From assembly GCA_022560555.1 (NCBI GenBank), contig JADFSZ010000084.1, positions 1-7,663 on the forward strand: a stretch of DNA of 7,663 nucleotides, read 5' to 3'. Source of the stretch: JADFSZ01 sp022560555 [NCBI: PVC group bacterium]. Lineage in GTDB: Bacteria > GCA-001730085 > JADFSZ01. Of the stretch, positions 1,687 through 7,489 are shown one piece after another. Each line of letters begins with the position of its first letter. Position 1 is the first letter of the stretch. The notes under the pieces are model-generated. The model saw nothing but the letters and a program-made list of their open reading frames with translations. It made no database searches and had not been told where the DNA came from. The translations under genes and the position numbers were made by a program.

Positions 1687-3072
1687 TTAGCGATTTAAAA
1701 GAGAATTTTTAGCAAGATGGAAAATGGATGTCCACATACTACCCGGGAATTTGGAGCAGTCCGTCAAGACGCATTCAAATGATTGAAGAAAATAAAGTGC
1801 ATCCTCCGGGTTGAGTGTGAGGGCCGGCAAAAGTTTAATCACATCCATGCGGTGCCCCGCCACTTGGGTTAGAATGCGGTGTTTGTTCAAGAGAGGCATG
1901 ATAATTGTCTGTGTGAATAAATCCTGATTCATCCTATGGATCATATCCCAGGCGGTTTTCATTCCTAAAGATTGAGGGCGTGTAAACTCAATCCCGATCA
2001 TGACCCCTTTCCCGCGAATCTCTTTAATAATATCATATTTTTTTCTGTGCTGATTTAAACCATCCAGAAATATTCTTTCTAGATGAATCACATTGTCCAA
2101 AATATTTTCTGATTCGATAACATGCAGTGTCGCTAAGACGGCGGCCATGGCAAGGCCGTTTTGACTAAAAGTACTGGAATGGACTACGCAGCGATCCATT
2201 TTACTAAACACACTGTCATGAATGTCCTGCCGGGATAGAACGGCTCCGACAGGAATCATCCCGCCTGAAAGAGCTTTTGATAACGTGACAATATCCGGAG
2301 TGATACCGAAATGCTCAAAGGCAAAGAATTTTCCTGTTCGTCCGCATCCTGTTTGAATCTCATCGGCAATCATTAAAGCACCGTATTTTCGACAAAGAGT
2401 TTCAGCCTGAGGGAAGTAATCATGATCAGGGAGATATACTCCCTTGCCTTGAATCGGCTCAAAAATAAATGCGGCAACATCATTGTTTTTTAAGGCTCTT
2501 TCTAATACTTCGAGATCGTTAAATGGGATCTGTTGACATCCATCCAGCAACTTACCGAATCCATCCTTGAATTCAATATTTCCGTTAACGGATAAAGGTC
2601 CGATTGTGAGGCCATGGAAGGCATGTTTGAGAAATACAAACTTATCTCTCTTTGTAAAACATTTTGCGTATTTCATGGCCGTGTCTACGGATTCAGAACC
2701 TGAATTAGTAAAAAATACGTTTTCTAAATTATCCGGAGCGATTTTGATGAGACACTCCGCGGCCAGTCCGCTCACTACGGCGCAGTCCATCTTGAGAAGG
2801 TGCGGAGCTTGAGAGCCGATAAAATCCATAATCGCTTTGACAATCACAGGATGGTTGCGGCCTAAGGCAAAAACACCATAGCCCGTGATAAAATCAATAT
2901 AACGTTTATTATCCTTGTCATAAAGGTAATATCCGTTGGCGCGTGTGTAAGCCTTGTCAAAGCCGATAGTTTTTACCACTTTGACAAATTGTTTATTGAT
3001 GTGTTTGCTGTGAAGATGGTACATGTCGCCGGTACGCTCTTTGAGAATTTTCTTTAGATCAAAATCCGCCAT
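1687..3072 (-). CDS. Class-III PLP-dependent aminotransferase (ornithine/putrescine-type subgroup likely)
   Basis: The 461-residue protein is a fold-type I, class-III aminotransferase. Visible marks are NSGSESVD at 123-130 (phosphate cup), FHG at 152-154 (ring-stacking region), EPIQGKG at 205-211, IADEIQTGCGRTG at 235-247 with Asp237 for the pyridine nitrogen, TLSKALSGG at 263-271 with the Schiff-base Lys266, and STFSQN at 300-305. All catalytic residues are present. The wording around NHPVIVKAI and the DEIQTG motif resembles acetylornithine, putrescine and omega-amino-acid aminotransferases; the true substrate cannot be read from sequence. About 30 residues extend past the usual C-terminus. 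It is the last gene of the operon. ATG 3072 overlaps the patatin stop by one base (TAATG), with AGGA at 3082-3085 as ribosome site, so translation is probably coupled. A role in supplying or consuming an amine in the lipid/acyl pathway suggested by its neighbours is inference. Confidence 0.9.
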   Translation of the reverse strand: MADFDLKKILKERTGDMYHLHSKHINKQFVKVVKTIGFDKAYTRANGYYLYDKDNKRYIDFITGYGVFALGRNHPVIVKAIMDFIGSQAPHLLKMDCAVVSGLAAECLIKIAPDNLENVFFTNSGSESVDTAMKYAKCFTKRDKFVFLKHAFHGLTIGPLSVNGNIEFKDGFGKLLDGCQQIPFNDLEVLERALKNNDVAAFIFEPIQGKGVYLPDHDYFPQAETLCRKYGALMIADEIQTGCGRTGKFFAFEHFGITPDIVTLSKALSGGMIPVGAVLSRQDIHDSVFSKMDRCVVHSSTFSQNGLAMAAVLATLHVIESENILDNVIHLERIFLDGLNQHRKKYDIIKEIRGKGVMIGIEFTRPQSLGMKTAWDMIHRMNQDLFTQTIIMPLLNKHRILTQVAGHRMDVIKLLPALTLNPEDALYFLQSFECVLTDCSKFPGSMWTSIFHLAKNSLLNR

Positions 3073-5126
3073 TATGATTTTTCCTGTGTAGCTAAAAGTT
3101 TTTTTATGGTAATTTTCTTGATCTCGTCTACAACCTTGTATGCCGCTTCCTCTCCGGTTTTGACAAGGTCGCGAAAACGATGAAAATCGAAAAATGAAAA
3201 CTGCTCTATTTCCGGTTCAATCCGGATATCGGCATCTCTGGTTTTAAAACGTGCGTTGTTTAAACTCGATACGCCTACAGTTCGTGTAATAATCCGAATC
3301 ATGGTCGGCTCGGTAAAAAAACGATCAAAGACAGATAATAGACCTTTAGGTTTTGATTGTCGAGCGGAATCTGAATAGGGTGAATGGGTCAAAAAACGCT
3401 CGTGATAAGGTGTGACCGTTGATGTGATAATGATATGAGCCCCTTTTGATTTGAGAATATCTGCCGGAACGCTGTTAGATACGGCGCCATCAATCAAATA
3501 GTGATTTTTCCAGCGCACAGGCGGCATGAGAACGGGGATGGAAGAACTGGCTAAAAGCGCACGGTAAAGAATGCCTTTTTCGAGAACAATTTCGGAGCTG
3601 GTGATTAGATCAGTGCATAGAACATAGACAGGAATCGGAAGTTGGTCAAATGTCATATGTCCGAAAAAATCCTGCAAAAGTTTTTTAATCTTTCCGCCTT
3701 TCGTGATGGATGTGCGCGGCCAAAGTGAGTAATCTAAAATGGAAGACCTGCCTTTACCTAGATCATGAAAAAGTCGATTTTCAATCTCAGCAGCTGTTAC
3801 ACCTGTCGCGTACATAGCGCCGATCACAGCCCCCATACTTGTTCCGGAAATCATATCCACAGGAATGCCCTCTTTTTCAAATACTTTGAGAATCCCAATA
3901 TGCGCCATGGCTCGTGCTCCGCCGCTGCCAAGAGCTAAACCGATTTTAGCTCCCCCGAGCTCTCGTGCCAGGGTGTTCATCTGGCGGGTTGTTTTGCTAG
4001 CAGGCTCATCAATAACAATCGGAATTATTTTTTTGGTTTCAAAGAGAGGCTCATTTTCTCGCGTTGGAATGAGAATTGTGCTATTGATTTTTGACGCGTT
4101 CCTGATTTGCCCTAAGAGGCTTCTCGGCATAAAAACATTGTAAAACAAAGCCAATTTGGATTTAAGATTTATGTCTATCGTTTTCTCCCTAAGCTCATAG
4201 AGGAGTCGGTAAAGGTGTCTTAATGAGTCTTTTTGAGTTGTCGTTAAAATGATCGTTTTGTGAGATTGATCGATAGATTTAAAAGAAAATTCAGATTTAG
4301 GAATGCCGCTGCTGATCAAAAGTAAATCATACTTTTTGTGAAGTCCGCCGAGAAAGGGAGCTATATGTTTTGGATCCATCTCTTGTAAGAATTTTTTTTC
4401 ATCCTGACTAAATACCAGCATATCTTGAAAGTCCATAAATTTATGAACGTGCTCCTGGATGCACTCTTCACGACACTCTGGGTTGTTAATGGTTTTGAAA
4501 AACTCGTGAAGATCAGGTTTTTTTGATGTCTCACAAGAAGAGCTGTTTATGTGAAATTGGCTATTAAAATCAATAAACAAAACATTCTTGTGTGTCTCTG
4601 CCCGAAGGGAAAGCGCGAGATTTAGAGCAAAAGGAGAAGTGTTGATTTTAGGATCCGCGGTTAAAATGCTGATAATGGAGGGCGTGTAGATCAAGTCTTG
4701 TTGGATGTTTGTTTTTTTAAGCCGTTGCGACAAAATATGACTGAGATTTAATGAAATAACGTGTGATTTCGAAATGAAATCGTTAAAATCCTTTTTTGTG
4801 AGCAAGAGCATCTCAGTGTCGAGTGATGCCGTTGTTTCGGCTGATGTTTTATCTCCCGTCAAAAGCGACATCTCCCCAAAGTAATCGGAAGCATTTAAAA
4901 TGGTTAAAATCCTTTCCTTGTTATCATCTGTCTTAGGGACCTTTACAACAATCTGCCCGGATTTTACGATATAGAGATATTGCCCGACCTCATTTATATG
5001 CTGGACAACCTCACCGCGACTGTAAAAGACAAGGGAGGATTTGTTTGAAATGGAGTTGATCTCTCGATCTGAAAGAGAATGAAAAAGCGGGCAGTGTTTT
5101 AGTGTGTGATAATTAGGATTTGACAT
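3072..5126 (-). CDS. Cyclic-nucleotide-binding-like, MinD/CpaE-like and patatin phospholipase fusion
   Basis: The 684-residue protein has three parts. Residues about 10-135 form a cNMP-binding beta-roll domain with the FGEMSLL cassette at 83-89, but the Arg expected near residue 94 is Thr (GDKTSAE). Residues about 148-375 resemble a MinD/CpaE-type P-loop ATPase (IISILTA, FALNLALSL, NVLFIDFN at 181-188, YDLLLISS at 266-273), yet the GKT Walker-A residues are missing. Residues about 393-575 are a patatin/RssA-type lipase: oxyanion loop GSGGARA at 400-406, nucleophile Ser430 in GTSMG, and catalytic Asp546 in DGA. The dyad is intact, so acyl-ester hydrolysis of phospholipids or lysophospholipids is likely, as in bacterial relatives of neuropathy target esterase. 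No signal peptide is seen; the enzyme probably acts at the cytoplasmic membrane face. It starts one base after the upstream stop, with AAAGG at 5136-5140 as ribosome site. Confidence 0.88.
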   Translation of the reverse strand: MSNPNYHTLKHCPLFHSLSDREINSISNKSSLVFYSRGEVVQHINEVGQYLYIVKSGQIVVKVPKTDDNKERILTILNASDYFGEMSLLTGDKTSAETTASLDTEMLLLTKKDFNDFISKSHVISLNLSHILSQRLKKTNIQQDLIYTPSIISILTADPKINTSPFALNLALSLRAETHKNVLFIDFNSQFHINSSSCETSKKPDLHEFFKTINNPECREECIQEHVHKFMDFQDMLVFSQDEKKFLQEMDPKHIAPFLGGLHKKYDLLLISSGIPKSEFSFKSIDQSHKTIILTTTQKDSLRHLYRLLYELREKTIDINLKSKLALFYNVFMPRSLLGQIRNASKINSTILIPTRENEPLFETKKIIPIVIDEPASKTTRQMNTLARELGGAKIGLALGSGGARAMAHIGILKVFEKEGIPVDMISGTSMGAVIGAMYATGVTAAEIENRLFHDLGKGRSSILDYSLWPRTSITKGGKIKKLLQDFFGHMTFDQLPIPVYVLCTDLITSSEIVLEKGILYRALLASSSIPVLMPPVRWKNHYLIDGAVSNSVPADILKSKGAHIIITSTVTPYHERFLTHSPYSDSARQSKPKGLLSVFDRFFTEPTMIRIITRTVGVSSLNNARFKTRDADIRIEPEIEQFSFFDFHRFRDLVKTGEEAAYKVVDEIKKITIKKLLATQEKS
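3082..3085 (-). promoter_or_regulatory. Ribosome binding site of the aminotransferase gene
   Basis: AGGA on the minus strand, within the end of the patatin gene, lies 9 nt before ATG 3072. Together with the TAATG stop/start overlap this points to translational coupling. Confidence 0.5.
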
Positions 5127-5127
5127 T

Positions 5128-5520
5128 TTAGTTTACCTTTCCAAAAGCTTTGTCAAATTCAAAAATATCCTTAAAATCATCAAGGCTGTCGTTCTCGGTC
5201 TTTGAAAGGATCTTGTGATCAAGTAGATTGTAAACAATATGACCAAAATCAATCGTTTCGTTGACACCCCAATGATCAATCACAGTCCGGACCATGGGTC
5301 CGAATTTATCATTGGCAAAATCCTTGATGCCATAAAGAAGCTCTTTGCCGGTGACGTGGCCGGGCTGAGGCCGCTTGCGGACTGTGTTCTCGAGCGCCTC
5401 AAGGACAAAAATGTAAGAGTCACGCTTGAATCGCGGATCACGTTCAACAATGCAATCCAGTGTATCCTGGAAATCTGCTTCGCTTAATTTAGGGGGGCTA
5501 TTTTCCCTCGACTGAGTCAC
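5128..5520 (-). CDS. Minf_1886-family protein (TIGR04138-like), function unknown
   Basis: The 130-residue product matches, from memory, the Minf_1886 / TIGR04138 family of Verrucomicrobia, Planctomycetes and relatives. The recognisable core runs from RDPRFKRDSYIFVLEAL through GKELLYGIKDFAND, FGPMVRTVIDHWGV and DFGHIVYNLLD, and ends with the KTENDSLDDFKD and FDKAF blocks. It has no membrane segment or signal and is probably a soluble, mainly helical cytoplasmic protein. Its role is unknown. I place the start at GTG 5520 because GAGG at 5530-5533 lies 9 nt upstream; the open frame reaches TTG 5562, but that start lacks such a site and adds 14 residues before the conserved core. The chosen start overlaps the GH3 end by 23 nt, and the stop lies one base before the patatin ATG. 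Its position between two lipid-related enzymes suggests an accessory or regulatory role in that pathway, which is inference. Confidence 0.82.
   Translation of the reverse strand: MTQSRENSPPKLSEADFQDTLDCIVERDPRFKRDSYIFVLEALENTVRKRPQPGHVTGKELLYGIKDFANDKFGPMVRTVIDHWGVNETIDFGHIVYNLLDHKILSKTENDSLDDFKDIFEFDKAFGKVN
5136..5140 (-). promoter_or_regulatory. Ribosome binding site of the patatin fusion gene
   Basis: AAAGG on the minus strand, inside the final codons of the Minf_1886-type gene, sits 9 nt before ATG 5126. With a 1-nt gap between stop and start (TAAAATG), the ribosome that finishes the upstream gene can restart directly. Confidence 0.5.
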
Positions 5521-7183
5521 AGCTGATTTCCTCAATAGTTTTAAATTGTTTCTGAAAATCAAAGTCGCTTGTTAGCTGCATCATCTTGAATTGGCCGTCC
5601 GGAGTACCCGAAGCAACTTTGTTTTTGCGGTACTTTTCCATTTCGCCCTGGGCGAGGATTTTTAAGACAGGAGCTCCGAGTCTTAATGATTTTCGCTTGC
5701 TCTCGTACTCGATATTTTGAATACTCAGTCTTTCATCGATAGACTTTATGATGTTCATCTTTGCTTCCCGGCTGGTAGAGTCAGGTAAAGATTCGATCAA
5801 AAAACTGTATCGTGGAGGGTCGCTTGGATCAGCTACGGCCGAAACAAAAGTAAAATCAATATCCATATCCTGCATAGTTTCGCGAACGCTTTCAATGACC
5901 TGGTTTTCATAAAGCTTCTCTCCTGTAAGAGAGCTTACCCCTTTTCCTTTTTGAATGAATGATATTAACGGCGCGTCATAAAAAAATCCATCCACTCGTA
6001 TGATATCATTCATTTCGTAGCGGTAAAGCCCGGCGGAGGTGGTCATAAAAACGAAGTATTGCTCATCTTTTTCAAGTTCATGTGCTCGATAAACAGTCGG
6101 GTCGTCTTTTTCGATATCATCCAAGCGAATAAATTCGTAAAAATTTGTTTGAATCGTCAGCACTCCGGAAGAGGAATTGTCCTCTAACGGTAATGATCCG
6201 CGAAGCTCGCTCGCAAGATATCCCCAGTCCCGAATAGGAGTTGATTCGGGAAAATAGGCTCGCAGACCTTTTAAAAATATTTTGACGCTTCCTCCTGTCC
6301 AGCAGCCGATCAAGGCCATGTTGGGCCAGACGTCCTTTGGCAGTAAACTGTTATTTTGTTCGGAGAAATTTTGCAGCTCGGACGCTCGCTTAGGATTAGG
6401 TGTTAATCCGCGTGCGATGATCTTTCTTATCGCGTCATCAATAATAAGATCTTTTTTGAGAGTTCCATCTTGGATATCACGGATAATATCTTTTTTAAAA
6501 ATATCCATTTTTCTTGCCAAAAGGAGGATCGTACTTGGATTGCATGATCCGAGGAAAGTGACATCATGTTCTACGGACAATCTCAATAGAGTGTAATACT
6601 TTGAATCATAGTCTTTAATCAGAAAAACTTCATAGGGAGCCACATAGAGTTTCCGCATTGCATTCGGGATGTTTCGATAAGCGTGTCCGGACTCGGCTCC
6701 GCACGGTATGCCGCCTTTAGTGTAGCTTTCGATTTCCGGGCTAACAAGTGTAAAAAACTTTCCTTCGAACATTCGGGGATGATCTTTGGACGCTTTGTAC
6801 AGCCAGAGCCGCATAACGGCTGCTTTGTCATTGCGTGAAGTTTTGTTCATCGGAATGTATTTTGGGGTTCCTGTCGTGCCGCTTGTTGTTGCGAAGAGTA
6901 CGGGGTCTTCACATGTGAGAATGTTTTTGGCCCCGAGGGTTAATTGATTAATGTATTTGGAAATGTCATCATAGCTCTGACGGGGGACATGCGCCTGGAA
7001 ATCGGAAACTGAATGGATCGTCTCAAAGTCATGCTCATTGCCGAACGCACATGTCTGATTATCGCGGATTATCTTTAAAAGAACGTTTTTTTGCGTCTCT
7101 TCAACCGCGCGAGAGGCTGCTTCGAATTCAGACATCCCCTTTTTGCCAAGGATGTCTAAAACGTATTTGGCTATGGTAGGCAT
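5498..7183 (-). CDS. GH3-family acyl-acid amido synthetase (adenylate-forming enzyme)
   Basis: The 561-residue protein belongs to the GH3 branch of the ANL adenylating enzymes, best known from plant enzymes that activate jasmonate or auxin as an acyl-AMP and join it to an amino acid; bacterial members are mostly uncharacterised. The three GH3 nucleotide-binding motifs are present: the P-loop TTSGTTGTPK at 99-108, YLASE at 322-326 (YxxSE) and LYRYEMNDIIRV at 386-397 (YRxGD equivalent, here with Asn before Asp). The C-terminal lobe ends with a GQFK segment at 530-533, close to the conserved C-terminal lysine region of the family. Length is normal and the frame intact. The N-terminus (MPTIAKYVLD) fits, but no clear Shine-Dalgarno precedes ATG 7183. 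It is the first gene of the four-gene operon. The acyl and amine substrates cannot be read from sequence; the adjacent patatin and aminotransferase make a fatty acid and an amine attractive guesses. Confidence 0.9.
   Translation of the reverse strand: MPTIAKYVLDILGKKGMSEFEAASRAVEETQKNVLLKIIRDNQTCAFGNEHDFETIHSVSDFQAHVPRQSYDDISKYINQLTLGAKNILTCEDPVLFATTSGTTGTPKYIPMNKTSRNDKAAVMRLWLYKASKDHPRMFEGKFFTLVSPEIESYTKGGIPCGAESGHAYRNIPNAMRKLYVAPYEVFLIKDYDSKYYTLLRLSVEHDVTFLGSCNPSTILLLARKMDIFKKDIIRDIQDGTLKKDLIIDDAIRKIIARGLTPNPKRASELQNFSEQNNSLLPKDVWPNMALIGCWTGGSVKIFLKGLRAYFPESTPIRDWGYLASELRGSLPLEDNSSSGVLTIQTNFYEFIRLDDIEKDDPTVYRAHELEKDEQYFVFMTTSAGLYRYEMNDIIRVDGFFYDAPLISFIQKGKGVSSLTGEKLYENQVIESVRETMQDMDIDFTFVSAVADPSDPPRYSFLIESLPDSTSREAKMNIIKSIDERLSIQNIEYESKRKSLRLGAPVLKILAQGEMEKYRKNKVASGTPDGQFKMMQLTSDFDFQKQFKTIEEISCDSVEGK
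5530..5533 (-). promoter_or_regulatory. Ribosome binding site deciding the Minf_1886-family start
   Basis: On the minus strand, GAGG (plus-strand CCTC 5530-5533) precedes GTG 5520 by 9 nt within the GH3 coding tail. The alternative TTG at 5562 has no comparable element, so this site supports the shorter 130-residue protein. Confidence 0.5.
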
Positions 7184-7341
7184 TTTAAAGTTCGGAAATC
7201 AAAAGCACAAATCCAAATCAGCACTTTCAATTTATGAGTGTTATATTCGATAGTCTATATGCTGTTGTAAGGCTATTAAAATGAGGATTTTAACAGAAAA
7301 GAAGGGGAAGTCAATCGCTAGTGCATATCGATAGAATTGGA
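7184..7341. other. Divergent intergenic region between the GH3 operon and tRNA-Leu
   Basis: This AT-rich stretch has no supportable gene. It must hold the promoter of the minus-strand operon. Candidates read on the minus strand are TTACAA (plus 7265-7270) with TATAAC (plus 7240-7245) at a long 19-bp spacing, and TTGAAA (plus 7225-7230) with only a poor -10. Neither is convincing. It also contains the palindrome at 7276-7293, listed separately. Confidence 0.3.
7276..7293. repeat. Perfect 7-bp palindrome in the divergent promoter region
   Basis: TTAAAAT (7276-7282) and ATTTTAA (7287-7293) are exact reverse complements around GAGG. The site lies just upstream of both divergent transcription units. 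It could be an operator for a dimeric regulator of the GH3 operon, but an AT-rich palindrome of this size can arise by chance. Confidence 0.35.
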
Positions 7342-7370
7342 TTGACAGGTTATAGGTCGGCATATATAAT
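7342..7370 (+). promoter_or_regulatory. Consensus sigma-70 promoter for tRNA-Leu
   Basis: TTGACA at 7342-7347 and TATAAT at 7365-7370 both match the consensus exactly, with the optimal 17-bp spacer. Transcription would start near 7377, about 30 nt before the tRNA-Leu 5' end, leaving a short AT-rich leader for RNase P to remove. The strength suits a stable-RNA gene, and the transcript may extend through tRNA-Gly. Confidence 0.85.
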
Positions 7371-7407: not shown

Positions 7408-7489
7408 GCGAGAGTGGCGGAATTGGCAGACGCGCTAGATTTAGGATCTAGTGTCCTCGGACGTGGGGGTTCAAGTCCCTTCTCTCGCA
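7408..7489 (+). tRNA. tRNA-Leu (anticodon UAG)
   Basis: A complete class-II tRNA folds cleanly. The acceptor GCGAGAG (7408-7414) pairs with CTCTCGC (7482-7488), with discriminator A at 7489. The D stem is GCG/CGC (7417-7419/7431-7433) with GG in its loop. The anticodon stem CTAGA/TCTAG (7435-7439/7447-7451) encloses loop TTTAGGA with anticodon TAG at 7442-7444, reading CUA. A long variable arm lies at 7452-7464. The T stem GGGGG/CCCTT (two G-U pairs) encloses TTCAAGT. The CCA end is not encoded. The long variable arm and discriminator A both fit leucine. Confidence 0.97.

Follow-up and report, generated by a model that had tools for sequence, protein, structure and literature searches.

The 7,663-nucleotide contig JADFSZ010000084.1 of the PVC group bacterium JADFSZ01 sp022560555, analysed here as a whole and referred to as the window, carries on its minus strand four tightly packed genes, which in order of reading encode a GH3-type synthetase, a Minf_1886 family protein, a patatin fusion protein and an HpnO-like class-III aminotransferase. 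The GH3 gene (5498–7183) encodes 561 residues from an ATG start, the Minf_1886 gene (5128–5520) 130 residues from a GTG at 5520, the gene for the fusion of cyclic-nucleotide-binding-like, MinD-like and patatin parts (3072–5126) 684 residues from an ATG, and the aminotransferase gene (1687–3072) 461 residues, likewise from an ATG. The first two genes overlap by 23 nucleotides, a figure that depends on the choice of start since a TTG at 5562 opens the longest Minf_1886 frame; the GTG is favoured because a GAGGA lies 9–13 nucleotides upstream of it (5529–5533). The Minf_1886 and patatin genes are separated by 1 nucleotide, and the patatin and aminotransferase genes overlap by 1 nucleotide. Ribosome-site-like tetramers (GAGG/AGGA, AAGG at 5136–5139 and AGGA at 3082–3085) begin 12–13 nucleotides ahead of the last three starts, each within the preceding gene; none is present in the 25 nucleotides upstream of GH3. 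An earlier note on this DNA had described the four genes with the same overlaps and gap and had placed the ribosome sites inside the upstream neighbours, and both descriptions are borne out, the 23 nucleotides given the GTG start.

Upstream of GH3, a consensus scan identifies a promoter-like site, TTGACT-16-TAAAAT (7287–7314, minus strand; 10 of 12 positions), although such sites are also expected by chance, the window containing 21 of them versus 13.8 ± 3.6 in shuffled sequence. Judged from their sequences, the four frames are real genes and not chance frames, because they match the GH3, TIGR04138, cNMP_binding/Patatin and Aminotran_3 profiles. The G+C content of the four genes is even (0.41–0.44), resembling that of the window (0.434) and of the own-genome contigs with the hopanoid genes described below.

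The aminotransferase provides the firmest link to a known pathway. The protein matches Aminotran_3 (PF00202) with 304.9 bits, and Lys266 in the motif SKALSGG (codon at 2275–2277, minus strand) is presumably the lysine that binds pyridoxal phosphate. A search of 290 genomes yielded five strong relatives outside its own genome (422–561 bits, 44–53% identity), followed by a gap to the next match at 303 bits, and the strict set used below was cut at this gap, which was chosen after the list had been seen. In a tree of 25 sequences, built without the reference HpnO of R. palustris, the six strict aminotransferases including that of the window form one clade with support of 100/100, and the separate ArgD- and BioA-like aminotransferases of the window's own genome, assigned by reading, fall outside it. 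The gene for one member of the clade (L151/L168) is clustered with those for squalene-hopene cyclase, HpnH and DXS, and the gene lying between the last two reads as IspG. Behind another of the strong relatives (L166) comes a gene for an HpnN-like transporter (497.6 bits, cut-off 751.85), which a neighbour in L167 resembles by reading only.

HpnH scores above the cut-off in 23 of the 290 genomes, comprising all six with a strict aminotransferase and 17 of the 284 without. The idea for this test came only once the hopanoid cluster was known from one of the six genomes, and hence p values without that genome are also given: the co-occurrence has p 1.6e-6 without the window's own genome, 2e-5 when the hopanoid-cluster genome is dropped as well, and 3e-4 when one of two same-family genomes is further removed. 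The weaker aminotransferase matches display no such link, with HpnH in 1 of 12. The window's own genome encodes both proteins by which the capacity for C35 hopanoids was judged, squalene-hopene cyclase (476 bits) and HpnH (525 bits), on contigs other than that of the operon and with G+C contents of 0.419 and 0.433, respectively. Because the window enzyme shares a clade with an aminotransferase from a hopanoid cluster and HpnH occurs in all six genomes, it is, from its sequence, very probably HpnO, the enzyme making aminobacteriohopanetriol. In the literature, HpnO is described as the enzyme that turns ribosylhopane into aminobacteriohopanetriol, its gene typically standing apart from the hopanoid cluster in the Alphaproteobacteria studied (PMC12583986); it is placed in a Streptomyces cluster (PMC9228677), and it is close enough to other aminotransferases to call for caution (PMC5462960).

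The best NCBIfam match of the window aminotransferase is PigE at 400 bits, well below the cut-off of 850. An enzyme of the PigE or TamH kind would make a fatty amine for the GH3 protein instead of an aminohopanoid. However, the four scanned clade relatives, all from genomes with HpnH and one within the hopanoid cluster, are likewise best matched by PigE (375–429 bits), and the match thus does not discriminate, whereas the tree and the HpnH pattern favour HpnO and the operon is without a reductase, which together leave a PigE- or TamH-like role improbable. A HemL-like frame adjoining HpnH in L239 has a start that reads as glutamate-1-semialdehyde aminomutase and is 31% identical to the window aminotransferase, and for these reasons it was not counted as another HpnO.

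The GH3 protein contains the N-terminal, middle and C-terminal domains of its family above cut-off (PF03321, PF23571 and PF23572; 245.8, 71.9 and 56.3 bits), and its best solved relative is the plant JAR1 (126.1 bits over residues 17–538). All three nucleotide motifs are also present, namely TSGTT at residues 100–104 (6872–6886), which is the same in L003 and L004 but for one position, YLASE at residues 322–326 (6206–6220) and GLYRYEMND at residues 385–393 (6005–6031), all on the minus strand, and the domains and motifs together place the protein in the GH3 family. A bacterial function for this family was published in 2025 (J Biol Chem) with OlsH of Singulisphaera, which, given ATP and Mg, conjugates a free fatty acid with ornithine, after which the alpha/beta hydrolase OlsI attaches the second acyl chain of the ornithine lipid; in living E. 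coli OlsH remained silent, and its authors attribute this to scarce free fatty acid (PMC12493201). Profile searches with Pfam and NCBIfam found no OlsI-type alpha/beta hydrolase among the four genes of the operon. Elsewhere in the window's own genome, positions 8–223 of contig C26 (L006, L238) hold a further GH3 fragment that shares about 50% identity with residues 486–557 and ends at the contig edge; a frame that reads as PilZ comes after it.

The patatin fusion begins with a cyclic-nucleotide-binding-like domain at residues 33–120 (4767–5030, minus strand; PF00027, 62.3 bits), the cassette of which, GDKTSAETTA, is without the usual arginine, a residue present in two of four aligned relatives. 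The arginine of the phosphate-binding cassette is important for cyclic-nucleotide binding. Next, a MinD/ParA-like stretch covers residues 167–314 (4185–4628; PF13614, 24 bits, below the cut-off of 27), and its P-loop is not kept, with ADPKINTS versus GPAGVGKT in the relative L129. Finally, the patatin domain at residues 397–558 (3453–3938; PF01734, 114.8 bits) retains complete motifs, with the oxyanion GSGGAR at 400, GTSMG at 428 containing Ser430, and DGA at 546 containing Asp546, so that the catalytic dyad is kept. The sequence suggests that the fusion protein may be controlled by a factor that is neither cAMP nor ATP, or may be unregulated. The patatin part reaches 129.6 bits with the RssA model (cut-off 272), has PlpD as its best solved relative, and is akin to NTE-type patatins. 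In genome G236 a relative of the fusion (L126) has a response-regulator receiver domain added at its N terminus. The Minf_1886 protein matches TIGR04138 with 128.7 bits (cut-off 60) and no Pfam family, and has one match per genome in 39 of the 290 genomes; a single-sequence fold model with a mean predicted local distance difference test score of 43 was not used, and a literature search on the family turned up one genome paper.

Taken together, the locus could represent a lipid-amide operon of a hopanoid-making bacterium, a joint pathway that takes in HpnO, GH3 and patatin and to which, as a whole, we give a probability of about one in three. In such a pathway, HpnO would convert ribosylhopane to 35-aminobacteriohopanetriol, the identity of the enzyme being supported here and its chemistry coming from the literature; GH3, by the mechanism of OlsH and the plant enzymes, would activate a carboxylic acid with ATP and join it to an amine; and patatin might cut membrane lipids and thereby provide free fatty acid, which a GH3 of the OlsH type requires. 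The amine acceptor would most likely be the aminotriol, because the GH3 and HpnO genes are made together, and the product would be an N-acyl- or aminoacyl-aminotriol. Lipids of both kinds are known from several bacteria: N-acylaminotriols with C16–C19 acids are reported (PMC8537080) and also appear in a figure legend of PMC11844350, and tryptophanyl-, ornithinyl- and phenylalanyl-aminotriols are reported as well (PMC12583986), whereas for the amide bond of either group no enzyme is named in the excerpts of the literature searched; in the case of N-acetyl-aminobacteriohopanetriol, PMC9228677 only guesses at an acetyltransferase encoded at another place in the genome. Among the top-listed papers of a search that paired GH3 or patatin with hopanoids or ornithine lipids, the OlsH work was the only one on GH3. 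It is a tentative proposal that GH3 might be the missing N-acyl-aminobacteriohopanetriol (or aminoacyl-aminotriol) synthase, taking its amine from the HpnO and its fatty acid from the patatin of its own operon. An HpnO linked by overlapping genes to an amide-forming synthetase provides a named protein in which the aminotriol amide step can be tested, and, if the proposal is true, a bacterial GH3 would gain a specific candidate acceptor other than an amino acid.

The earlier note, which had suggested an undescribed pathway for acyl-amide or lipid-derived amino-acid conjugates, appears partly right. Its lipid and amide theme agrees with the conserved GH3 motifs, the N-acyl ornithine made by OlsH and an HpnO-like, amine-making aminotransferase, although the joint pathway stands as a proposal; the term undescribed goes somewhat too far now that a bacterial GH3 function has been published. 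The hopanoid link is an addition beyond that note, through which the lipid-amide idea gains a concrete amine.

The same genes can also be understood as two pathways, in which GH3 would make an N-acyl amino acid, an amino lipid resembling ornithine lipids, patatin would act as a lipase or as an O-acyl transferase replacing OlsI, and HpnO would separately make the aminohopanoid, the operon merely co-expressing membrane-lipid genes; we rank this possibility level with the joint aminotriol pathway. The precedent of OlsH acting on ornithine speaks for it, ornithine is made plausible by an ArgD-like gene in the own genome followed by argF- and argG-like frames (by reading), and the surroundings of other GH3 genes lead in the same direction, as these adjoin acyl carrier, ketoacyl synthase and alpha/beta hydrolase genes or enolase-superfamily proteins whose sub-cut-off matches include N-acetyl-Glu racemase. 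Yet separate pathways leave the place of HpnO in the operon unexplained. The window GH3 also scores far below the cut-off of the OlsH model NF052613 (121.5 versus 620 bits), as do eight other scanned GH3 proteins (97–137 bits), a shortfall that counts against either scheme.

Around GH3 genes elsewhere, several arrangements were observed. In L008, L017 and L246 the gene comes directly after a pair of ketoacyl-synthase-like genes and an alpha/beta hydrolase gene, joined in L017 by that of an acyl carrier protein. Such groups have the look of a unit dedicated to fatty acids, and the OlsI model does not match the hydrolase of L008. An enolase-superfamily protein is recurrently found near GH3 in L285, L286, L287, L288, L306, L309, L311 and others, all loci from the phylum of genome G285, and also in L246 and L011; its NCBIfam matches, all below cut-off, include muconate cycloisomerase, o-succinylbenzoate synthase and N-acetyl-D-Glu racemase, and it may racemise an N-acyl amino acid produced by GH3. 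A C45-type acyltransferase/hydrolase adjoins GH3 in L294 (1652–2755; NF040521, 122.3 bits, cut-off 85) and L243 (10649–11794; PF03417, 24.1 bits, cut-off 23.2), the two being 57% identical.

A number of comparative results weigh against the joint pathway. A tree of 81 GH3 sequences puts the window GH3 nearest to two rows from genome G285 (a join with support 88, not starred), in whose phylum 30 of 384 genomes have GH3 matches at E 1e-60, with up to 47% identity. The recurrent neighbours of these nearest relatives differ from the partners in the window: within four genes of 34 GH3 loci, single-link clustering gave as top neighbours enolase-superfamily proteins (9), alpha/beta hydrolases (7) and NAD-dependent epimerase-like proteins (6). 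The gene order of the window recurs in no other genome searched. With the own genome excluded, GH3 and the strict aminotransferase co-occur in none of the 290 genomes, and GH3 and HpnH in 4 of 23 (expected 1.75, p 0.085), these counts taking in 24 of 26 GH3 genomes, those above the curated cut-off. Among 44 GH3-bearing genomes, drawn from 33 of 80 pattern-scan loci and 11 of the 26 GH3 genomes, the best aminotransferase match has an E value of 2e-89, outside the strict range. No homologue of HpnH or squalene-hopene cyclase (E 1e-20) was detected in the best 80 of 311 GH3 loci; that first contig scan used two peptide patterns and missed the nearest GH3 clade, in the phylum of G285, and its silence taken alone proves little.

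The same survey bears on the possibility that the four genes form a chance operon, co-expressed and not belonging to one pathway. At E 1e-6, two or more of the four genes are found together in none of 182 GH3, 35 aminotransferase, 11 patatin and 45 Minf_1886 records; these are locus records outside the window's own place and not independent genomes, with several GH3 records per place, GH3 flanks of up to 10 kb but often of 1.5 kb or ended by a contig edge, and general class-III aminotransferases included among the 35. At the looser E 1e-4, L048 matches only the cyclic-nucleotide-binding part of the patatin fusion (residues 8–140) and was not counted. No pair of the four genes co-occurs significantly in the 290 genomes once the window's genome is set aside; a single genome combines GH3 with the patatin fusion, and the single-copy Minf_1886 gene nowhere else adjoins the other three. 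A conserved, fixed four-gene operon, as the earlier note had envisaged, is accordingly rejected as far as the searches reach, which covered one other genome of the window's phylum: within that reach the gene order is unique to this genome, an outcome which that note had itself named as refuting, and the conserved family co-occurrence for which it had proposed a search was not seen. A chance operon nevertheless appears rather unlikely given the tight overlaps and the lipid-related families of three of the four proteins. In genome G228, GH3, Minf_1886 and a patatin fusion are located on three separate contigs (L128, L130 and L246), and about 6 kb separate Minf_1886 from a homologue of squalene-hopene cyclase; this genome has no HpnH above cut-off and no strict aminotransferase.

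Elsewhere in the window, a thiL gene (TIGR01379, 261.6 bits) converges with the operon from the other side. On the plus strand, a perfect TTGACA-17-TATAAT (7342–7370) is located just 5′ of a tRNA-Leu gene (7408–7489), and a 168-residue frame with CxxC pairs (209–715), matching no Pfam family, reads as a zinc-ribbon membrane protein.

Compared with known systems, the window resembles the OlsH/OlsI pathway in the GH3 fold family, the nucleotide motifs and a lipid hydrolase-like partner gene, but it differs in having a patatin as that partner where OlsI is an alpha/beta hydrolase, in the presence of an aminotransferase and in the absence of OlsG. The plant enzyme JAR1 matches the window GH3 over its full length, whereas the genomic setting is a different one and a hormone substrate is not expected. 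Patatins of the RssA, PlpD and NTE type share the intact dyad, although that of the window is fused to a cyclic-nucleotide-binding-like domain lacking the arginine and a MinD-like part lacking the P-loop. Finally, the aminotransferase is allied to HpnO by its clade and by the HpnH of all six genomes, while the genes that share its operon are those of GH3, Minf_1886 and the patatin fusion and not hopanoid genes.

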